From the IMG/VR virus record IMGVR_UViG_3300037087_000298, positions 1 through 39,729 of that record: a stretch of DNA of 39,729 nucleotides. One strand, 5' to 3'. Under the pieces are notes generated by a model that saw only the letters and a program-made list of their open reading frames with translations, had not been told where the DNA came from and did no database searches. Of this stretch, positions 1,483 to 28,807 are shown one piece after another (positions within the stretch are counted from its first letter, which is position 1; each line of letters starts with the position of its first letter). Both the position numbers and the translations under genes were made by a program. This DNA is from a virus.

Positions 1483-2157
1483 TTATTCCACCATAAACTT
1501 CACTAGGAAGTCCTGGCTAATTTGGATTATTTTTTGATTGGTACCTACCGTCACAGGGGTCCCGCTTGTTGGCGTTATATACGGGAATGAGTAGAAACTC
1601 TTCGCATTGGCCCTTATGGCATTCCTCACGTCGCTCATTGTATCATTCAAGTCATCTCCCCCTCCGAGTCCACCTGCTATCGTGCTGACTTTGTTCACCG
1701 GCATCCACACATAAATCGAGATAAGATAATCAGTTATATGCACCATGCCCCCCAGCCCAAGAGGTTCCGTGCTCGGGCTCACCAAACTGATTCCTATCCT
1801 TGGGAAGCTTTCTAGAGTTAGGTCAGACCTAGGCATGTCCGGATACACCTTGTCACCCGTTCCGTAATCATAATTAAGGACTATTGCCTCTCCCCCGGAA
1901 AGTGCAGAAACCAATGTTATGACCCCCGTCGAGAAGTTGATCATATAATCCTTTATGAAGTATTTGTTCACCGCGGTTATTGTAAGTGACCTTATGTTCT
2001 TCAGTGTCGAATGCGTTGGTGTAATTGTGCTACCCGCAATTCCTGTTATATTATCTGTCACAGTCGTAACTCCCCTTATTGTAGTGCTGAAAATATCCGC
2101 ATTTCTCAAGGTGTGCATTATCTCCTCTCTTATGTTCTCTAGTTCAAATGTACTCAT
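1483..2157 (-). CDS. tail terminator / tail completion protein
   Basis: Product of 224 residues. An N-terminal helix (about residues 4-20) precedes a beta-rich central part and a closing beta strand. It overlaps the gp10-like gene upstream by 4 bases (ATGA) and is followed by the tail tube gene. In siphoviruses the gene between the gp10-like protein and the tube is usually the tail terminator, which caps the tube and joins it to the head. No diagnostic motif is visible, so the call rests on synteny. It could instead be another head-tail joining protein. Confidence 0.5.
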   Translation of the reverse strand: MSTFELENIREEIMHTLRNADIFSTTIRGVTTVTDNITGIAGSTITPTHSTLKNIRSLTITAVNKYFIKDYMINFSTGVITLVSALSGGEAIVLNYDYGTGDKVYPDMPRSDLTLESFPRIGISLVSPSTEPLGLGGMVHITDYLISIYVWMPVNKVSTIAGGLGGGDDLNDTMSDVRNAIRANAKSFYSFPYITPTSGTPVTVGTNQKIIQISQDFLVKFMVE

Positions 2158-3487
2158 GACAATTCCCCCTTCACAATTGTTTTTATGTCACCTATGGATT
2201 GCATCAATGCTGTTCTCAGGAATGGTCGATAATATCCACTAAATGTTTTTAGGGGATTTTCCGGCGTTCCAACTTTTATCCCTTCCTTTTCTATCTTCCT
2301 TATTACTGGACCTTTTGGAAGTCCGTGCCTCTTGGCCCATTCTCCTAATTGCTCCTTTTCACTCTCACCGAGAACTCCTGGCGGAGTATTGTGGGTTAAT
2401 ATTCCATTGGCAAAAAAGGGACTATTTCCTTCCAAACTAATATTAAAAATTTCTCCTTTTTGTAAAATCTCTTTTTTAACTTCAATAACTCTTTCTGTTT
2501 CTTCCATCCATTGAAGAAATTGAGATTTTGTATTTTTTCCATATCCATATTTTTTATGAAATTTTTGATGATGTTTTTCACATAAACAAACTAAATTTTC
2601 TCTTTTCATTCTTTCTTCTGGAAATTCCTTATATCCATTCAGATGATGCAAAATATTTCCCTTATCTATTTTTCCACATACATTACACATAAATTTCCTT
2701 TCCCTTTTTTCATGTCTAATGAATTTTCTGTATTCTGCCTGTTTTCTTTTTTCAGTAATCCCACCTTTCCAGTTATGGTTCTTTTCTCCAATTTGGGCAT
2801 CTGAATGCTTTTCTCTTTGTACTTCTGAAAGTTTCCAATGCTTTCCTTTATTTCTTATCATGTTTTCTCCTTGAAGATAACATTTCCTTGAGCAATATTG
2901 TGGTTTTGATTTTCTTTTTAACTCTGAGGGTTTCCTTTTAAATCTTTCATTGCATCTCTTGCATTTTATTTCTATGAGGTTGCTTAATCCCTTATTCCAT
3001 GGAACTCTACCTTTTTTTGATCCCATTATATTTCTTTTACTAATTCCCCCCTTCTTATTTTTACAGCGGGTATCCATCCTCTTTGCGTCCATATTGGATG
3101 GTCAGCTGTTACTTCTAATTTTCTCCTTGCTGTTTTTATAATAATTTTTTTAATAGGATATCCTATCTTTATTCTTTCTAATTGCAATACTTTTCTATAT
3201 TGAACTCCATCCCACACCAAATCTCCTATTTTCATTTTACTTAATTTCTTTTTACCCCTTATTGTTTGAATGCTTACATCTTTAAAAAAGCACCCATACT
3301 CCATGTCCTTTGCATATTCTACCGGCGTGAATATTATTACTGAATCTCCCTCTATCTTGTGTGTGATGCTTGCCCTCAATACACCCATGTCCACTGGGCA
3401 TATCATCTTGGCTTTCATTTCCACATATGCACCAATGCGATCCAAAATTCTATTTTTGGTATTTTCATCTAGCATGCTGTCCGTCAT
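2154..3487 (-). CDS. HK97 gp10-like tail completion protein, split by an intein and a frame break
   Basis: The N-extein (65 residues, ending VEYAKDMEYG) and the C-extein (starting TPPGVLGESE) join seamlessly into an HK97 gp10-like head-tail joining protein. Typical signs are the PVDMGVLRAS segment and the VEYA..MEYG strand. Between them is an HNH intein (2388-3292). The N part (stop near 3026) and the rest (open to 2154) lie in different frames. A -1 change at a run of six G (+ strand C at 3046-3051) restores one continuous product. Either the genome sequence has a one-base error, or the gene is inactive, or ribosomes slip here. Confidence 0.75.
2388..3292 (-). mobile_element. HNH intein in the gp10-like gene
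   Basis: Splicing motifs are clear. Block A starts at Cys1 after MEYG. Block B has the TADHP signature in LEVTADHPIWTQRGW. The C-terminal block reads FFANGILTHN, followed by Thr at +1. The middle carries NUMOD3-like repeats (KKGRVPWNKG), a zinc knuckle (CKRC...YCSRKC), and an HNH core with CNVCG, HHLNGYK and LVCLCEKHH. The endonuclease shares the frame of the C-terminal splicing half. The N-terminal splicing half is in another frame, broken at the G6 run. Family knowledge says such inteins home into intein-less alleles of the same gene. Confidence 0.85.
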
Positions 3488-3774
3488 TTGAATGTCTCCC
3501 TCAATATCTTTTCTACGTCGTCGCGGAAAGGAAGCTTAATGTTGGCTTTTATGTCCTTCCTCAAAGACACCTCGTTTGGATATACTTCCATTATGTCTCC
3601 GGCAGTCTTCCTGCCAATCCCCTTTATCGATTCAAGCTTTACGAAAAAGAATTCTTTCCTGTTTCCTTTTCCTTGGGATTCCAAGTTTGCAATTCTCTTT
3701 TCATGATCGCGAATGACATTCTCCATATGTTGCTCATGCGTCATCGGAACCTCAGGAATAATATCGTCTGTCAT
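3484..3774 (-). CDS. small helix-hairpin-helix protein of the connector cluster
   Basis: Product of 96 residues. An N-terminal coiled-coil-like helix (about residues 12-35) precedes a helix-hairpin-helix motif, SIKGIGRKTAGDIME (about 48-63), of the kind that contacts the DNA backbone without sequence preference. It overlaps both neighbours by 4 bases, inside the head-tail connector cluster. It might contact DNA at the portal exit or be a non-structural passenger. No close family is recognised. Confidence 0.5.
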   Translation of the reverse strand: MTDDIIPEVPMTHEQHMENVIRDHEKRIANLESQGKGNRKEFFFVKLESIKGIGRKTAGDIMEVYPNEVSLRKDIKANIKLPFRDDVEKILRETFK

Positions 3775-4127
3775 ACTTTAAAACATACCCCCAAATCCAG
3801 CATCGCCGTCCCAAGCACAAATCTGTGTATCACGTTCTGAATGTAAAATGCCTCCCCTGAAATTGTAAATCTGTCATATCTCTTTATTCCTACAGTCGTC
3901 GCGCATAGAATATAAGCATCTCCGACTTCCACCAAACCCTGCTTGTCGAAGATGAACCTATTCTCCTCAAGGAAAAACACCGCGCTCACATTACTCGCCG
4001 TCGCAAATGTGTCCGTCTCGTTTCCTGTTCCGTCAGTCGTCTTGGTCACGACCTGATAACTCAACGTCCTAGAGAAATCCGAAAGTATCTGCGCAAAGTC
4101 GCTGGAAGAAACTCCTGTATTGCTCAT
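3771..4127 (-). CDS. head closure / stopper-like protein
   Basis: Product of 118 residues. A short N-terminal helix is followed by a small beta barrel-like region, with the EVGDAYILC and YDRFTISGEAFYIQNV strands resembling phage head-tail joining proteins (SPP1 gp16 type). It lies between the adaptor (4124..4846) and the HhH protein, overlapping both by 4 bases. The likely role is sealing the DNA exit channel after packaging. The call combines fold-like features with gene order; no catalytic site is expected. Confidence 0.55.
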   Translation of the reverse strand: MSNTGVSSSDFAQILSDFSRTLSYQVVTKTTDGTGNETDTFATASNVSAVFFLEENRFIFDKQGLVEVGDAYILCATTVGIKRYDRFTISGEAFYIQNVIHRFVLGTAMLDLGVCFKV

Positions 4128-4846
4128 CTATCCATCCCAGAAGCAAAGAAGAGTCTTCTTGGTCTTCTGCCTACCCTGTCAAGGATTGCGTTTGCCTCGC
4201 TGGTCAGGCTGTCTATCATCTGCTTGCCCCTCTGGAATAAATCTCCCTTGCTCACGCTCTGTTGCGGAATAGAATAAGAGTTCAAATAATTGTACGATCC
4301 GCCGAGGAATTTTACCCACTGTCTTATGCCTATCAAACAGCATGCTAAATTGTTTATTGCATGTGGAATCGTGGAATATCCATATGTATAAGTCACCTTT
4401 ATGTTCCTGTTGCCGGGAGGGAATTCCGTGTTCTTTAGTATGATCTTCCCGTTCATTGAGATTCCCCTTGTCAATGGATCCTCTTGGCTGTCCATCCAAT
4501 AGTCTATCGTCTCTGTGCCTGTGGAAAGTGCGGCATAGGTAGTATTTGTAGTTCCGTCTACGTTCAATATCAGGAATGATGTGATTGTTAGAATTGGATA
4601 AAAAGAAAGGTTGATCGTTCTGGCCTTCTGGCCGCTAGTTCCGATTACATCCAGCTTCGGTCCGTCAAGCGTCTCTGTTATTGAATTTGAATTCGTGAAC
4701 TTTCTCCCGGTCAATACTTCTACTTCCTCTTCTCCATCATTAATCAGTTGAGAATCATTTGCAGTTATATCCGATTCTGTAACTGTCAATCCCGATTTAT
4801 TATATACATCGGTTGCACTCGCGAGATATCTAAGTACATATACCAT
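4124..4846 (-). CDS. head-tail adaptor protein
   Basis: I place the start at the ATG at 4846, preceded by a GAGGA ribosome site, not at an earlier in-frame codon, giving 240 residues. The N-terminal half (ANDSQLINDGEEEVEVLTGR) looks like the helical DNA-packaging/connector family (gp6/gp15-like), where helices bind the portal ring. A beta-rich insertion (about residues 50-140) and a C-terminal helical bundle follow. It is the first of five head-tail joining genes linked by 4-base overlaps. Confidence 0.6.
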   Translation of the reverse strand: MVYVLRYLASATDVYNKSGLTVTESDITANDSQLINDGEEEVEVLTGRKFTNSNSITETLDGPKLDVIGTSGQKARTINLSFYPILTITSFLILNVDGTTNTTYAALSTGTETIDYWMDSQEDPLTRGISMNGKIILKNTEFPPGNRNIKVTYTYGYSTIPHAINNLACCLIGIRQWVKFLGGSYNYLNSYSIPQQSVSKGDLFQRGKQMIDSLTSEANAILDRVGRRPRRLFFASGMDR

Positions 4847-10245: not shown

Positions 10246-10412
10246 TATCTTGAATTCAACTTCTTTAATTCAGTCAGTATCTCGTCCATCTTGTCCAATA
10301 CAAGAACCATCTCCAGACCGACCTTCAGTTGATTATTTCTCTGGCCAGTCGCCGCCTTGTTTATCTTCCTATTAATTCTTTGATTGTATTTTGCTTTTTC
10401 GAGCACCATCAT
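10245..10412 (-). CDS. 55-residue coiled-coil protein
   Basis: ATG ATG start at 10412 after GAGGTGA. The product is helical and basic at its N-terminus, with a coiled-coil end (VLVLDKMDEILTELKKL). It is coupled to the next gene by TAATG. No family recognised. Confidence 0.5.
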   Translation of the reverse strand: MMVLEKAKYNQRINRKINKAATGQRNNQLKVGLEMVLVLDKMDEILTELKKLNSR

Positions 10413-10437
10413 TTCACCTCAATATATTCTGTATTAT

Positions 10438-10935
10438 TTAATTCTTTGGAAGAAATCTGCCATATCTGTCGATTATCCTTTTGGCGTAATGTAATTTGTG
10501 ATGCTCTATTTTGCTCATCAACATCAAATTGCCTAAGGAATTGTTCAATCTGTCGAAATCCTTGTGATGCAAAATCATCCCTTGGGGAACTGATCCTAAC
10601 TTCAATTCCCATAGGTAAGTATGTTCCCTTACCCATCCCTTCTTGGGAACATAAATCATTCTGTATCCCCTTTTGCCTATCTTTGTTGTTGGATTCTCCC
10701 TGAATTTTCTTTCTCCTCTTTCCAAATAATCTTTTCGCTTGGGAGATAGATGTCTCCATTGCCATTCCACAGACTCCTTGGGCCCTCTTATTTGAATCTC
10801 GTATCTTTCCAGTCTCCTCATTATTGTCCGCGGATTGCATTTTAATTCTGAAGATATCTGCCTTACTGACTTTTCTTCTTGAATATACATCTTCTTTAAA
10901 ATATCTTGAGTTATCTCTTTTTTGTAATCTCTCAT
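10438..10935 (-). CDS. free-standing HNH homing endonuclease
   Basis: Product of 165 residues. The N-terminal helix-turn-helix (SVRQISSELKCNPRTIMRRL, about 23-42) is a target-recognition domain. The C-terminal HNH_3-type core has LHHKDFDRLNNSLGNLMLM (about 121-139) and HHKLHY. It sits between the portal and a short gene without a promoter of its own, as intron-less homing endonucleases do. It probably cuts the matching site in related viruses lacking it. A longer overlapping frame here lacks these motifs and is a shadow. Confidence 0.8.
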   Translation of the reverse strand: MRDYKKEITQDILKKMYIQEEKSVRQISSELKCNPRTIMRRLERYEIQIRGPKESVEWQWRHLSPKRKDYLERGERKFRENPTTKIGKRGYRMIYVPKKGWVREHTYLWELKLGSVPQGMILHHKDFDRLNNSLGNLMLMSKIEHHKLHYAKRIIDRYGRFLPKN

Positions 10936-10969
10936 TCATTTTAATATACACCTACATTTAAATATCTTT

Positions 10970-14292: not shown

Positions 14293-14796
14293 CTATTTAA
14301 ACTTTTTGGATAATTTTGGAGAAATTTGGATATTCCTTTTTCTGACCTTCGCTTCTTCTTTCATATGGCATTTAGTGCATAATGAAACGAGATTCCCTTT
14401 GGAATTGTCTTTGCTAATTGCATAAGGAATTTTATGATGGCATTGATATTTGTATTTTGTCAAATTTCTCCCACATTTTTGGCAAGTGAAATTGTCTCTC
14501 AATAATACTTCCTTAGACAACTTCTTCCATCTTGCCTTTCCTATCCCATACCACCCGCCAGGCAATGCATTATCTTGAGCATATTTATTCAGTTCATAAA
14601 AAGGATGTTTCCCTTCAGAATATCTCTTCTTCCCCAAATCTCTGTTTATCTCAATGGTCTTTGGGCAATTCAATTTCCCTTTCTTAAAGCATCCTCTTCC
14701 CTTATTTATCTGTTTATGCCCATTAGTAAATGTGCCTTTTTTATTCCTGTTCCAAGGATGAGGACATTTCCCGCTGGTCATGATTATGGCAACCAA
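14293..14796 (-). CDS. free-standing HNH homing endonuclease
   Basis: Product of 167 residues. NUMOD3-like repeats (HPWNRNKKGTFTNGH) at the N-terminus precede a classical HNH core: CQKCGRNLTKYKYQCHHKIP, then NLVSLCTKCHMKEEA (about 108-150), with paired CxxC zinc ligands. It lies between the TerL stop and portal exon 1, close upstream of the portal intron, and might mobilise that locus. Alternatively it is the small packaging HNH common beside terminases, but the NUMOD3 part favours homing. Confidence 0.78.
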   Translation of the reverse strand: MVAIIMTSGKCPHPWNRNKKGTFTNGHKQINKGRGCFKKGKLNCPKTIEINRDLGKKRYSEGKHPFYELNKYAQDNALPGGWYGIGKARWKKLSKEVLLRDNFTCQKCGRNLTKYKYQCHHKIPYAISKDNSKGNLVSLCTKCHMKEEAKVRKRNIQISPKLSKKFK

Positions 14797-14814: not shown

Positions 14815-17109
14815 TCACTTAGCGTACTTCACCATCGCCATGGCAAATGGCACCTTCTTCTCAAACGTGTAAAACATACGTTGCATTAAAATATCCCCGC
14901 AGTCTGTAGATCTATTCAATCCTCCCTGCTCCTTTATCTCTTCCTTCGTAATGACTTGCAGTTTCCCGTCCTGGTCTGCGTTCTTCTGCTTCATCTGTTC
15001 TAAATCTTCTATGATCAATTTCTTGGTCTCCATCGGCACATTAAGGTATATGCCTATCATTCCGGAATTCACGTAATTGGCAAGGGTGAACCAGCATTGT
15101 GATCTAAGATTCTTGAAGTTGTGCTGCACTTTGTCAATCTCTTTTTCGTCCTCCTTCTTGATCGGCGAACTTCCAGCCACGAAACCCCTGACCTCCCTTT
15201 TGTACGTGTTCTTCAGTTCGTGGACTATCCCGAAGCCAACGCCCGTCTCATCTATCAGGCAGTTGCTCGATGGGATCATTCTCTTTGTCAGCATCTCGTC
15301 AAGCTCCTTGGCTGTTAGTGAACTCGGGGGCATTATTATCTCGGAAATATAAAATCCGTCCCAAAATGAAATTACTGTCTTGTCCCTTCCCAGTCCGGCC
15401 ATGTCCACTATGCAATATTTCAGTCCCCTCTCCGCATCCAGCGTGAACATGTCTATTATCTTCTCATAGTTGAACAATTTGAAAGGATCGTCTGAATATT
15501 CCCAGTTCCCGTTCAGAAGTCTCTCCATGTTGACTGGATCCAGTTTCTTAAGATTCTCTATGTAGTGCTCGGATATGAACGGATTGTCATATACGCTGGC
15601 CCGTATGTACGCCTTGTAGGGTTCTAACTGATTGTCCTTCCACTTCTTGTAGAATTCCCGGTAAATAAACGTCTTGCAGGGATTCGAACCCATGGCGATC
15701 TTGGGTATTAATCCAAACTCATCCAATTTATACCTTATTCTTGATCTGATGATCTGATAAGCCTGCTCCGTAATCTCTGGCATTTCATCGATAAATCCGT
15801 CGGTGAATTCCGTTGAACCAAGACTAACGAAGTCCGGGTCGGAGGGATACAAAAACAAGTCTTTCAGATATTCCTCTGATCCGTTCGAGAATTTTATCAC
15901 GCTTGTCATGATATTGTAAGTAAAATCCTTTCCTTGCACAAGCCCAAGCTTTTTGCATACCTCGAAGAAAGTTAATAGTGTCGATTCCTTCAATGTTTTG
16001 AGTTGAGCTCTTGCAATGAATCCCCTAGATCCAGCATATTTCAGTCTTCTGTCTATCTGCCAGAGACATCCCGTGAAGCTCTTTGAATTATGTACTATTA
16101 TTTTGTTTTTTGTAATGATATAGTTATAAGTATTCTCAACAGTAAAATCATACCTACACTCATCTGAAGAATAAAATTCTATCTCCCAAATATCATCCAA
16201 ATTTATTTCAAATGCTTCCAACTCTTTCTCAGAATAATATCCTTTATGGTGCTTGGCTTTACATGATATTCCTGCGCCAATTGCTTTCTCCCGCATTTGT
16301 GAGGAACGAATTTCCCTCTTATCTCTATGACCTGCCGATTCGTCAGTTTGCTTGATGCATTCTCCTCTCCCCTGAATGTCTTCAAATTCGATGTCTTGCC
16401 CACATTTCCCTGAAATCCGCTCATTCTTTCTATTGCATGATGAAAATTCTCCTTTGGGGTCACCCATTCCAGATTTTCTATCTGATTGTTCCTTTTGTTG
16501 AAATCCTTGTGGTTTATCTGGTTCTTTCCCAATATCTTCAGTATAAATACTTCTGCCACTAACGTATGAATTTTCACTGCCTTGTTCTTTCCGCCTAAAA
16601 CAATAACCGTATGCAAGTATCCTTTTCTGCTTATTGCCGGATTCATTATCATTTCTCTTCCAGAATTCTTCCAGTTCTTTGTCTTCAATCTTCCTTTGTT
16701 GCTTATCCAATATATCCCATTCTTGTCTATCTCTTTCCAAATCTCTCCAGGCAAGTTCTCCAAGTTCAATCCATTCTCCATTAAATAAGAACTTGTGGTT
16801 CGCTGTTGCTTTGATTTCCGTTCCATTTGTCTTAACTCTTATACATTCTACACCCCCCCCATTTATAAAAGTTTCTACTACCTTATTATAACATAAAGAT
16901 TTCTTTTCTTTATCATAAGAAAGCACCAAATCACCCTTCTTAATCTCTTGTATCTTCTTTTGCCCACCCAAAATTTCTACCGATGTATCTTTGGCAAAGC
17001 ATCCCCCTGCTGCGCCCCCCATGAAGACTTCCGTATGAATGTCATCATTTAGTACTTTCAGAAGTTCCACTTGCTTGGGGGTTATCGGCAGGTTGAGTTC
17101 TCTTTTCAC
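14815..17109 (-). CDS. terminase large subunit interrupted by an intein
   Basis: Uninterrupted 764-codon frame. After removing a 305-residue intein (residues 37-341) the host protein is 459 residues, normal for TerL. Walker A is GGAAGG|SKS, cut exactly by the intein. Walker B is GFIDEMPEI. The RNase H-like nuclease acidic sites are in YCIVDMAGLGRDKT and CLIDETGVGFG, with a late D in STDCGD. It powers DNA translocation into the prohead through the portal and cuts the concatemer. It overlaps TerS by 65 bases. Without protein splicing its ATPase would be dead. Confidence 0.9.
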   Translation of the reverse strand: MKRELNLPITPKQVELLKVLNDDIHTEVFMGGAAGGCFAKDTSVEILGGQKKIQEIKKGDLVLSYDKEKKSLCYNKVVETFINGGGVECIRVKTNGTEIKATANHKFLFNGEWIELGELAWRDLERDRQEWDILDKQQRKIEDKELEEFWKRNDNESGNKQKRILAYGYCFRRKEQGSENSYVSGRSIYTEDIGKEPDKPQGFQQKEQSDRKSGMGDPKGEFSSCNRKNERISGKCGQDIEFEDIQGRGECIKQTDESAGHRDKREIRSSQMREKAIGAGISCKAKHHKGYYSEKELEAFEINLDDIWEIEFYSSDECRYDFTVENTYNYIITKNKIIVHNSKSFTGCLWQIDRRLKYAGSRGFIARAQLKTLKESTLLTFFEVCKKLGLVQGKDFTYNIMTSVIKFSNGSEEYLKDLFLYPSDPDFVSLGSTEFTDGFIDEMPEITEQAYQIIRSRIRYKLDEFGLIPKIAMGSNPCKTFIYREFYKKWKDNQLEPYKAYIRASVYDNPFISEHYIENLKKLDPVNMERLLNGNWEYSDDPFKLFNYEKIIDMFTLDAERGLKYCIVDMAGLGRDKTVISFWDGFYISEIIMPPSSLTAKELDEMLTKRMIPSSNCLIDETGVGFGIVHELKNTYKREVRGFVAGSSPIKKEDEKEIDKVQHNFKNLRSQCWFTLANYVNSGMIGIYLNVPMETKKLIIEDLEQMKQKNADQDGKLQVITKEEIKEQGGLNRSTDCGDILMQRMFYTFEKKVPFAMAMVKYAK
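16087..17001 (-). mobile_element. intein in the TerL Walker A loop
   Basis: 305 residues. Cys1 (CFAKDTSVEI) forms block A. Block B is GTEIKATANHKFLF. The C-terminal blocks are YDFTVENTYNYI and KNKIIVHN, followed by Ser at +1. The middle, about residues 85-255 of the intein, is charged low-complexity sequence in this frame and matches no endonuclease. An HNH endonuclease is instead encoded there in another frame. The insertion at the ATP-binding loop is the classic conserved site favoured by inteins. Confidence 0.9.
16203..16781 (-). CDS. HNH homing endonuclease nested out of frame in the TerL intein
   Basis: Read one base later than the intein frame. Product of about 192 residues from the ATG at 16781 (an ATG at 16826 is also possible). 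It has a NUMOD4 domain (GEIWKEIDKNGIYWISNKGR), an HNH_3 core (QINHKDFNKRNNQIENLEWV, then TPKENFHHA), and a C-terminal helix-turn-helix (NRQVIEIRGK...KQLAQEYHVKPSTIKDII). This is a complete endonuclease, and the intein frame stays free of stops across it. No ribosome site is seen, so its expression route is unclear. Confidence 0.8.
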   Translation of the reverse strand: MENGLNLENLPGEIWKEIDKNGIYWISNKGRLKTKNWKNSGREMIMNPAISRKGYLHTVIVLGGKNKAVKIHTLVAEVFILKILGKNQINHKDFNKRNNQIENLEWVTPKENFHHAIERMSGFQGNVGKTSNLKTFRGEENASSKLTNRQVIEIRGKFVPHKCGRKQLAQEYHVKPSTIKDIILRKSWKHLK

Positions 17110-21172: not shown

Positions 21173-21784
21173 TTAATTACCTCCTGTTTTTACATTTAAT
21201 TTTTCTTTGATTTCCTTCTCATTAACCTCGGTTTCATCAAAGAATATAATCTCCCATCCTTCTTGATTAAATAATCTTATCCTTTCGGCTTTCCATTCTT
21301 CCAATCCCCCGCGGAATAACTCTTTGTGCTTTCTATAAAAAACCTCAATAGCTATTTTCTTTCCCGTTAAATCAACAAAATCAGGGCATTTTCGTGCAAT
21401 TATTACTTCTCCATTTCCTACAAATTTATATGGAAGATTTAATTTTTTAATCAAGTCTTCAAATTTGATTTCAAGGGAGGATTTTTCTCTTCTTTTCAAT
21501 CTTTTTTGTATATGCTCTTTAGTTTGTTTATGCCCCTTATATTCTGGACTTGTATGCGATTCCCTTAAATGTTCAATATGCTTTTCAGATAATTTTTTCT
21601 TATAATTCCATGGATGCTTTCCTTTCATTCTTTTGGAATGTTCTGGATTCTTCCCTAATTTTTTACCTTTGTTCCAAGGTATAACTCCTGTTTTTTTTCC
21701 TTTGTTCCATGGCTTTTGTCCTTTATGACTTTCAATAAGCCTTTTTCTTGTTATCTCTGGATTTTTTAATTTTCCTCTTGCCAT
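21173..21784 (-). CDS. NUMOD3 / Vsr-like homing endonuclease
   Basis: Product of 203 residues. The N-terminus has repeated NUMOD3-type segments (KGQKPWNKGKK, GVIPWNKGKK, MKGKHPWN), which bind DNA. The C-terminus has a PD-(D/E)XK-type core like Vsr: LEIKFEDLIKKL, CPDFVDLTGKKIAIEV, and WEIIFFDETEV. Such enzymes are free-standing homing endonucleases in phages. It is a paralogue in style of 26022..26759. It has a GGAGG site, and the gene after it has a disturbed start. Confidence 0.75.
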   Translation of the reverse strand: MARGKLKNPEITRKRLIESHKGQKPWNKGKKTGVIPWNKGKKLGKNPEHSKRMKGKHPWNYKKKLSEKHIEHLRESHTSPEYKGHKQTKEHIQKRLKRREKSSLEIKFEDLIKKLNLPYKFVGNGEVIIARKCPDFVDLTGKKIAIEVFYRKHKELFRGGLEEWKAERIRLFNQEGWEIIFFDETEVNEKEIKEKLNVKTGGN

Positions 21785-24256: not shown

Positions 24257-24330
24257 AGCGAGGAGCGGGAGTCGAACCACGCTATCTCTGGCGCATGAGG
24301 CCAACGAATCTACCGATTTTCTTCCCTCGC
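24257..24330 (-). tRNA. tRNA-Met-like gene, anticodon CAU, bulged T-stem
   Basis: Acceptor GCGAGGG pairs with TCCTCGC (last pair G-U). The D arm is GAA...TTC with GG in its loop. The anticodon arm is TTGGC-CTCATGC-GCCAG with anticodon CAU. The T arm has TTCGACT with GCG(T)GG/CCCGC, where one U must bulge out. Base 8 is A, not U. CCA is not encoded. It reads as elongator Met or CAU-Ile by anticodon, possibly degenerate. Confidence 0.65.
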
Positions 24331-25132: not shown

Positions 25133-26025
25133 GCTTTGCCCTCCGAGATTTTCTGCTTTAATTCTTCAAGATACTCTAAAAGAGTTTCATTGCTCCATTG
25201 GAAATTAAGAGGCAATAAATTAAACTTCTTTTTCCAATTGTCAAGTATCTTCAAATCTTCCTCTGCCTTTTTATCCCAGCCCATTTTGAGGGCTTTTTGG
25301 AGTATCTTTGGGATAGTCCAATTAGTATCAAAGCTTTCACTATCCATTTCTAAATCATAAAAATAATCTACTTCTTTCAAAATCTTCCGAACAAGTTCTT
25401 CTTGTTCGTAGCGAGGGTTTCCTGCCCGATGCTTCTCAACCAAATCTTCATTTATTGAATTATCTACATAATCTCTAACCTCTTTTAGAGATGCATCTTT
25501 ACCTTCTATTTGAAATTTAACATCTTGGGATTTTTCAAAGTCGCCACCAGATAATCCTTCGTTTGAAGGAAGGGAGATACCTGATGGCTTCTTGTCCGCA
25601 GAAGAACCCTGTTTTATTACGGCTTTTTGTGCAGGACTTACTCTTCTATCATCTGCCGATGAGACTTGCGGATTATATCTTGGAATTCTATCTATATATT
25701 CCATAATTCTTTTTCTATCCTCTAATCTTAATTTAAACTTCTTCCTGTTCTTGAATAGACCGAGAACGTCATTCAATCTTATGAATATATCCGCAGTCTT
25801 TAGCTTGTCCGAACCGCCAGAATATTTATTCGGTTGTGGGATAAGTTCATCCTTTCCCTTATTCTGGATAGAGGGTTTAGTCTGCGGATTATTTTCTTTC
25901 GGTGTGAATTTCTTGCAGAGACAATTATGCCTATTCTGAATACCAAACATTCTTCCTTTCCAACATCCTTTTCCATCTATATGAAAATGTTTATCGTGTC
26001 CGCAGGTGCAGATTTCGGGGGTCAT
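25129..26025 (-). CDS. protein with N-terminal zinc cluster
   Basis: Product of 298 residues. The first 40 hold CTCGHDKHFH, GKGCW and NCLCKKF, a probable zinc-binding site of Cys and His. A helical segment follows (IRLNDVLGLFKNRKKFKLRL), then a Ser/Gly/Lys-rich linker (about 115-170) and a helical C-terminal half with Trp. Its start overlaps the stop of the Vsr-like endonuclease (ATGA). No family recognised; it may be a scaffold or adaptor in replication or host takeover. Confidence 0.5.
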   Translation of the reverse strand: MTPEICTCGHDKHFHIDGKGCWKGRMFGIQNRHNCLCKKFTPKENNPQTKPSIQNKGKDELIPQPNKYSGGSDKLKTADIFIRLNDVLGLFKNRKKFKLRLEDRKRIMEYIDRIPRYNPQVSSADDRRVSPAQKAVIKQGSSADKKPSGISLPSNEGLSGGDFEKSQDVKFQIEGKDASLKEVRDYVDNSINEDLVEKHRAGNPRYEQEELVRKILKEVDYFYDLEMDSESFDTNWTIPKILQKALKMGWDKKAEEDLKILDNWKKKFNLLPLNFQWSNETLLEYLEELKQKISEGKA

Positions 26026-26759
26026 TCCATCTCCAGTTCGTCAGGGGTTTTATTCTCGTTTGATTCCTCGAACTCTTCGAGTGTCCTCTGCTCGCTCATT
26101 ATATTTATTATTTTCTCTTTAATTTCAATTTTGTTAGAATATATCTCTGTTTCCCAAAATCTTAGAATTTTATATCCCTGACTTTCCAATATAGTATTTA
26201 CTTCTTTATCTCTCTCGCTCCCATTTGGATAATTATGCCAATAAACTCCATCAGCAAATATACATATATTCGGTTTAATGAAAAAATCTGGAGTGCCATA
26301 CAAATTCTTCTGTTCTTCAAAATCTATTCCTATCCCTTTGAGAATCTCCCTCAATTCCCTTTCTGGTCTTGTATCGTGAACCCAAATTCCTTTTCTAATC
26401 CCATCTGCATAAGCTTTTTTTAAACCGGCACTCATCTTTTTTCTTGTTATTTCTGATAATTTTCTTCCTGTTAATGCGTTGCTTACCTTGGGATTTTTCT
26501 TTCCTTTGCTCCAAGAACCATGTTCTTTTGTATACTTCTTTAATGCTTCTATACTTTTATCAGAAGTAACTCCTTTTTTTCCTTTGTTCCAAGGAATATA
26601 TCCTTTCTTAAAAGGAACTTTAGGTATATATCCCAAACCCTTATTCTTCCTGTGGTCAGTTATAATCTTCTTAGTCTCTTCCGAATGATGCATTCCTTTG
26701 TTATTCCCGTGACTCTTTGGATTTTTACCTAAGGGATATTTTGCTATTTTATTGTTCAT
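26022..26759 (-). CDS. NUMOD3 / Vsr-like homing endonuclease
   Basis: Product of 245 residues. Several NUMOD3-type DNA-binding repeats (GMHHSEETKKIITD, GYIPWNKGKKG, GRKLSEITRKKMS) precede a Vsr-like nuclease: DTRPERELREILKGIGIDFE, TPDFFIKPNICIFADGVYWH, and GYKILRFWETEI. This fits the very-short-patch-repair-derived homing family. The last 25 residues are acidic and unlike the enzyme, perhaps the remnant of the gene into which it inserted. It lacks a clear ribosome site. Confidence 0.8.
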   Translation of the reverse strand: MNNKIAKYPLGKNPKSHGNNKGMHHSEETKKIITDHRKNKGLGYIPKVPFKKGYIPWNKGKKGVTSDKSIEALKKYTKEHGSWSKGKKNPKVSNALTGRKLSEITRKKMSAGLKKAYADGIRKGIWVHDTRPERELREILKGIGIDFEEQKNLYGTPDFFIKPNICIFADGVYWHNYPNGSERDKEVNTILESQGYKILRFWETEIYSNKIEIKEKIINIMSEQRTLEEFEESNENKTPDELEME

Positions 26760-28233: not shown

Positions 28234-28407
28234 TTAATGCTGCACTTTGTTGCATACTACTAATAAGTTGCAATTCTTTTTCTCCCTGTTGATTGCCCGA
28301 CTCACGCTCCCCGAATATCTATTTCCGGTGAAACATTCCCTGCACAGGTTTCCAAAGCACATTTTCCTGCATCTTCTGCAGGGCTTCTTAATCTTTGTAT
28401 TTGCCAT
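28234..28407 (-). CDS. 57-residue zinc protein
   Basis: ATG at 28407. KPCRRCRKMCFGNLCRECF packs five Cys in CxxC...C...CxxC form, followed by a basic stretch (SVSRAINREKK) and two more Cys. It overlaps the gene upstream by 20 bases. Likely zinc-dependent nucleic-acid or protein binder. Confidence 0.6.
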   Translation of the reverse strand: MANTKIKKPCRRCRKMCFGNLCRECFTGNRYSGSVSRAINREKKNCNLLVVCNKVQH

Positions 28408-28807
28408 TTCTCTCCTCTCTTTTCTTTTTATTAATCTCTTCTTTATTCTCGTTGTAATATCTCAAAACTTTCCCGATTATCTCTTCCTTGTTTCTTTGAT
28501 AATATTCTTTTCTCTTTTCTTTAACTATCAGACTTTTATTGTATAGACTTATTCTTTTTCTTACTTCCGGATTGTTCTTGTATCTCTCCCGCTGCTGCTT
28601 GTTTTTCCTTGCTTTAACGCTATTCAAATTCCGATGGACTTCGGGGTATCTTCTTAGGCATTCCTTGCTTCTGCAGGTTTTTTGCCTTTTTTCTACATAA
28701 TGCTTTTTGCTATGTGGCAAATGCTTTATGAATTTGTGGCACACAATACATCTTATTGAATGAAGCGGTCTGTAATTACATATTTCTATTTCAATCTCTT
28801 TTCCCAT
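28388..28807 (-). CDS. zinc protein with repeated basic helices, endonuclease VII-like N-terminus
   Basis: Product of 139 residues. CIVCHKFIKHLP and CRSKEC form a zinc site (about 20-52). Then come repeated motifs RYKNNPEVRKRISLYN, YYQRNKEEI and YYNENKEEI, like the DNA-binding repeats found before recombination endonuclease VII domains. The nuclease domain itself is absent, so it may be a truncated homing or recombination protein or a stand-alone DNA binder. Confidence 0.5.
   Translation of the reverse strand: MGKEIEIEICNYRPLHSIRCIVCHKFIKHLPHSKKHYVEKRQKTCRSKECLRRYPEVHRNLNSVKARKNKQQRERYKNNPEVRKRISLYNKSLIVKEKRKEYYQRNKEEIIGKVLRYYNENKEEINKKKREERNGKYKD

Follow-up and report, generated by a model that had tools for sequence, protein, structure and literature searches.

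The stretch of viral DNA analysed here (the window; positions 1 to 39,729 of IMG/VR record IMGVR_UViG_3300037087_000298) carries a TerL precursor ORF of 764 amino acids (14815..17109, minus strand), which starts with GTG behind a GGAGG sequence and runs unbroken through an intein of 305 residues (16087..17001, −; C37 to N341). The N-extein (17002..17109, −; 36 amino acids) ends with GGAAGG in the P-loop of the ATPase, C37 follows directly, and the intein ends with IIVHN before the S+1 residue of the C-extein (SKSF...; 14818..16086, −), which is 41% identical to an aligned Cellulophaga phage TerL. An intein-free related TerL, L004, is 75% identical and reads GGAAGG|SKSF, and therefore the empty site is known. 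The intein thus lies in frame at a conserved site for which an intein-free allele exists.

The PF14890 (Intein_splicing) model matched TerL residues 50-341 (4.5e-14), covering both splicing halves with a long gap between them. The N-terminal half (16744..17001, −; HMM score 111) carries C1 and the block B motif TANH, and the C-terminal half (16087..16221, −; HMM score 78) ends with IIVHN, VHN|S being present at the junction. Between them lies a stop-free linker of about 174 amino acids in the TerL frame (16222..16743, −), predicted to be disordered, the DNA of which is common to the endonuclease described below. Pfam recognised no domain in this middle part of the intein, in agreement with the original prediction of an unbroken TerL frame with an unmatched middle. 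In an AF2 model made from the intein alignment, the splicing halves mostly had pLDDT values of 74-91 and the linker mostly less than 50; the best PDB matches of this model found by Foldseek were inteins and intein-like domains (Ssp DnaB, Npu DnaB/DnaE), which together with PF14890 identify a Hint fold. Among related inteins, C1, TxxH, HN and S+1 are intact in all 18 of the complete members listed; L118, which was scored apart, is without the penultimate H. One might suppose that the insert is not spliced, either because TerL keeps it, as is the case for the ShiLan element discussed below, or because the gene is dead. The long, presumably disordered linker would suit such a reading, but the conserved splice residues, the predicted Hint fold, the position of the insert within the P-loop of an essential ATPase and the intact TerL exteins leave it only a very slim chance. 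The idea that the spliced product holds a nonsense linker was mistaken, as the linker stays in the excised intein and spliced TerL would be without it.

An Rfam search of the window gave no intron match, and a self-splicing RNA intron was rejected for this reason and because the TerL frame is open all through. The window contains a tRNA gene (24257..24330, −; RF00005).

In the frame that is +1 relative to TerL, the same DNA encodes a NUMOD4-HNH homing endonuclease of 192 amino acids (16203..16781, −) with its own TAA stop codon. The gene overlaps both splicing halves in part, the N-terminal one at its end and the C-terminal one at its start. The full +1 ORF has 207 codons (16826..16203, beginning with ATG 16826), and its conserved part comprises the 192 codons from ATG 16781. 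This ATG (16779..16781, −), the likely start, lies inside the intein codons for N-G and is common to L018, L019 and L222; an alternative TTG start (16767..16769, −) has a GGAG (16779-16776) at a distance of 6 nt. Pfam recognised HNH_3 (8.9e-8) and NUMOD4 (6.1e-6), confirming a complete HNH enzyme out of frame within the TerL intein at 16087-17001. A NUMOD4-HNH-HTH enzyme of about 190 codons had been proposed; the first two domains and the length (192 codons) stood, while the HTH gave a weak Pfam signal (0.025), with C-terminal helices in the AF2 model. I-HmuI (PDB 1u3e) was the best and only strong PDB match to the endonuclease model (E 4e-8), and in the family alignment the NUMOD4 and HNH_3 domains are present and the catalytic core is invariant. 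By its domains, invariant core and predicted fold, the enzyme appears to be I-HmuI-like, with putative cleavage activity; it shares domain order, core and predicted fold with I-HmuI and free-standing NUMOD4-HNH phage endonucleases but, unlike them, is encoded within an intein, where a second frame constrains it.

Both frames are free of stops, as had been noticed. When the synonymous codons of the homing endonuclease gene (HEG) were permuted among themselves, 10.7 stops were expected in the TerL frame and 0 were observed, none of 3000 permutations reaching zero; with a model of the virus's codon usage, 14.5 were expected and the minimum in 4000 samples was 6. Twelve family members tested singly gave expectations of 9.7-15.3 stops, with 0 seen in each. 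For the window's other genes, we estimate about 0.8 of the expected stop number. Moreover, 44 intein-resident HEGs have 0 stops each, and the median is 21 in the same frame of 176 related HEGs that do not lie in such inteins. Chance openness of the TerL frame is ruled out by the permutations, the 12-member test and the comparison of 44 with 176 HEGs.

These counts also bear on the suggestion that two compensating indels, or a pair of sequencing errors, shifted an endonuclease that was once in frame. Homopolymers do occur nearby (G8 at about 16852-16859). However, a second assembly (IMGVR 3300036886_000327) is identical here, differing from the window elsewhere by one 12-bp gap; the same frame relation is found in 20 distinct inteins; there are zero stops in each where 10-15 would be expected; and the two frames are under different selection. 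The second assembly and the 20 distinct inteins rule out sequencing or assembly error, and we regard the whole explanation as having a negligible probability.

Elsewhere in the window, an HNH_3 endonuclease (10438..10935, −) follows the portal/MuF gene and is overlapped by another ORF (10951..10409, −). Here the portal frame is also stop-free (0 versus 9.4 expected; 0 of 3000 permutations at zero), and, the intein-borne HEG apart, no further gene of the window lacks stops so completely against such an expectation. The overlapping ORF ends with EYIEVK, which nearly repeats EFIEV, the end of the portal protein. The arrangement resembles an out-of-frame insertion of the ShiLan type at the 3' end of a gene; a search for relatives found only the same virus.

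Relatives were fetched by IMG/VR scans keyed on the enzyme, whatever their frame, and were classified by HMMs for the enzyme and for each intein half; as these HMMs were built in this work from few sequences, they could have overlooked intein halves that are weak or very divergent. Altogether, 47 records (22 distinct enzymes) have intein halves, 45 of them (20 distinct) with the enzyme in the +1 frame, 2 split and 0 in frame; none of the 45 +1 records has a stop in the intein frame. Some of the 45 were obtained by a later scan that looked for a linker motif peculiar to the out-of-frame form. Given the bias of that scan, the absence of in-frame enzymes is judged from the HEG-keyed scans, which alone gave, with the window included, 15 records out of frame, 2 split and 0 in frame. 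Comparison of related TerL inteins thus revealed the opposite of an enzyme that is always in frame. The 20 distinct inteins lie in TerL P-loops, those with an identified C-terminal site just before S(G)(G)K; between lineages the insertion point shifts by 1 or 2 codons, and the layout is kept across TerL genes about 30-77% identical to that of the window. A scan of genome contigs gave 80 HEG loci, 0 of them in such inteins, and tblastn of the L108 and L023 inteins against GenBank phages gave no match. Judged by these comparisons, the +1 layout is a stable arrangement in the window and about twenty related inteins. With canonical bifunctional inteins (e.g., PI-SceI; PMC6801210) the element shares the Hint halves, a conserved site of the P-loop type and endonuclease DNA between blocks B and F. 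Nevertheless, it is not one of them: the endonuclease is an in-frame domain there, whereas here it lies in the +1 frame and has its own stop, with no in-frame relative among the 47 records.

The genetic code offers a reason for +1 being the sole relation seen. In this relation, the stops possible in the intein frame are T|AA, T|AG and T|GA, each beginning with the wobble base of an enzyme codon, and changing NNT to NNC never alters the amino acid (checked). Every +1 stop can therefore be lost without a change to the enzyme's protein sequence. The other shifted frame includes a case that has no silent fix, ATG followed by A, and 13-30 stops remain there. From this we infer that silent stop removal may account for the single frame relation.

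How the enzyme would be translated can be narrowed down. Stops close the enzyme frame shortly upstream of the start region, and therefore entry from far upstream is impossible. Start codons lie near the conserved core in 19 of 19 members examined (ATG in 18 of the 19), although their positions vary among members. In the window, the conserved ATG 16781 has no Shine-Dalgarno sequence, which about half of the window's genes have. The missing Shine-Dalgarno sequence would be consistent with +1 ribosomal frameshifting from the TerL reading, yielding a fusion of TerL-N, the N-terminal intein half and the endonuclease, and the upstream stops leave a window of roughly 30 codons where such a shift would work. 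Still, no conserved slippery site was noticed by eye in the aligned joins, start codons are found near the core throughout the members examined, the standalone P-loop relatives described below must use their own ATG, and the split relatives have their own starts. Frameshifting is thus unlikely, and internal initiation is favoured for the enzyme.

The two frames differ in selection. The enzyme frame has dN/dS values of 0.09-0.18 in nearly all pairwise comparisons (0.5 for L229-L235, a pair with 6 differences), and the linker in the intein frame has values near or above 1 in most pairs (pooled pN/pS 1.12), little being kept in it apart from openness. In all pairs compared, identity is higher in the HEG than in the linker. 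Purifying selection acts on the enzyme frame and not on the linker frame; therefore, both products appear to be important and separately encoded. That splicing and homing would be functions of separate polypeptides translated from overlapping frames, as had been proposed, is supported by these differences and by the 20 distinct +1 inteins, with splicing and the translation start deduced from motifs and ORFs. Intein and C-extein DNA identities were 92% versus 78% for L018-L222, 97% versus 88% for L108-L244 and 97% versus 87% for L229-L235. The greater likeness of the inteins than of the host genes in several pairs suggests recent homing or horizontal movement. The reverse was seen for L105-L247 and L108-L105, the inteins of which are less alike than the exteins, and therefore not every copy has been recently mobile. 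Inteins often lose endonuclease activity once fixed (PMC6801210), and the endonuclease frame could accordingly be a decaying passenger, with only the intein mattering now. This is very unlikely given the invariant core residues, a HEG dN/dS of about 0.1, HEG identities that always exceed those of the linker, and inteins that are more alike than exteins in several pairs; a dead enzyme is disfavoured by the dN/dS values and the intact core.

A tree of 53 enzymes places the TerL-associated ones in a single group (98/91); the ten intein-resident and five P-loop enzymes without an intein fall together (92/67), with the five nested inside. The simplest reading would be one origin of the overlap and one later intein loss, inner support being moderate and branches long. 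In five records that are among the closest non-intein relatives (L020, L021, L022, L101 and L102), the HEG sits at the TerL P-loop without an intein; the first ~35 TerL codons are duplicated downstream and the TerL start is rebuilt, making TerL whole again. In the frame corresponding to the intein frame, the HEGs of L020-L022 have 17-24 stops.

In the two split inteins, L024 (2583-4865) and L111 (172-2059), a HEG of the same family separates an N-half ORF from a C-half ORF that begins at an ATG of its own. Starts and stops overlap at these loci; in L111, the sequence ATGA holds both the enzyme start and the stop of the N-half. The host gene in L111, named by eye, is a RecA/DnaB-like ATPase and not TerL. 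'Fractured genes', in which an endonuclease gene separates the two halves of a split intein, were reportedly described by Dassa and colleagues in 2009. L024 and L111 fit that layout, with halves on separate ORFs and a separate endonuclease gene between them; the window's halves, in contrast, form one continuous ORF that overlaps the HEG entirely.

A second intein of the window (3292..2388, −) lies in an HK97-gp10-like gene, on ORFs 3487..3026 and 3092..2154. The TAA of its N-half ORF overlaps the ATG (TAATG) of a −1-frame ORF comprising HNH, C-half and C-extein, and the whole resembles a coupled split intein whose C fragment carries the HNH, as far as its ORFs indicate. One extra base (e.g., in the G6 run just upstream) would give an ordinary in-frame intein, and no relatives were found in IMG/VR. 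Four further ORFs of the window (14293..14796, 21173..21784, 26022..26759 and 28388..28807, −) resemble free-standing homing endonucleases by eye, and the virus seems unusually loaded with homing endonuclease-like ORFs.

Eight Pectobacterium/Dickeya phage records have a TerL intein without a recognised in-frame enzyme and with an antisense HNH ORF of 232 amino acids. In L250, the HNH (3189-2491, −) lies inside TerL (2298-4562, +), with the same layout in L251-L256; it matches HNH_3 (1.5e-6) and is 50% identical to an HNH adjoining TerL in Pseudoalteromonas phage PHS3. Both frames are intact in the seven records compared at the DNA level; in pairs with enough changes, pN/pS is 0.11-0.42 in the antisense HNH and 0.6-2.7 in the linker on the sense strand. 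The antisense HNH is a candidate second decoupled design. Between the TerL genes of Sabo and Setonix (L250 versus L255), 144 of 1248 nt differ in the C-extein and 37 of 864 in the intein, which suggests that the intein was transferred recently. Neither the intein nor the HNH is mentioned in the publication on these phages. HEGs that are antisense within group I introns (PMC9548176) likewise lie opposite the strand of the host element, but there the element is an RNA intron in nuclear rDNA and not a dual-coding intein.

The nearest published case is the ShiLan insertion (Arsenault et al. 2025, PMC11855218), in which a phage methylase gene harbours an HNH out of frame while its own frame stays open, and which has no splicing domain. 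Both are spreading elements in a phage gene with an out-of-frame HNH gene and an open host frame; ShiLan, however, is a non-intein described as using the third frame of another host gene, whereas intein halves are present here. In the collaborative homing proposed for T4-like phages (PMC2988022), a free-standing enzyme targets the site of a splicing element and joins that element, and HEGs overlap neighbouring ORFs, although the proposal concerns group I introns and the overlaps are about 1-24 bp there and the whole gene here. Our literature search found no intein with an out-of-frame endonuclease; priority is uncertain given a preprint (Gosselin et al. 2025, bioRxiv 10.1101/2025.01.02.630785) that, as cited in PMC11855218, concerns actinophage inteins of 'non-canonical architecture'.

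We consider it highly probable that the window carries a TerL P-loop intein with a complete overlapping I-HmuI-like HNH gene in the +1 frame, the separate enzyme homing the whole element. Under this explanation: reading in the TerL frame would give TerL-N, a splicing half, an unstructured linker of ~170 residues, the other splicing half and TerL-C; the intein, to judge from its intact motifs and fold, would splice out and restore TerL; the same DNA read one base later would give a separate endonuclease, probably starting inside the intein N-half (ATG 16781 or TTG 16769); this enzyme would cut intein-free TerL P-loops, the putative target, and repair would copy the whole element; and selection would hold the enzyme's amino acids while keeping the TerL frame stop-free, which should be cheap in the +1 relation since wobble T-to-C changes are always silent.

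More broadly, and with somewhat less than even confidence, we propose that intein residence of a whole endonuclease gene, in another frame or on the other strand, has evolved repeatedly as a way of life in which the gene rides unfused, that it arose at least twice in TerL inteins (+1 and antisense), and that fractured split inteins, with an endonuclease between the halves, may derive from it when the downstream half acquires a start of its own. Splicing and homing are combined in one polypeptide in canonical inteins, whereas here they would belong to two proteins from overlapping frames. The arrangement offers a specific and testable way for a free-standing endonuclease gene to enter an intein without in-frame fusion, and it supplies candidate intermediates towards split inteins. 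Annotation of one frame misses such enzymes, and large inteins without a recognised endonuclease merit a six-frame check; in the isolated Pectobacterium phages, the antisense version is open to bench tests.
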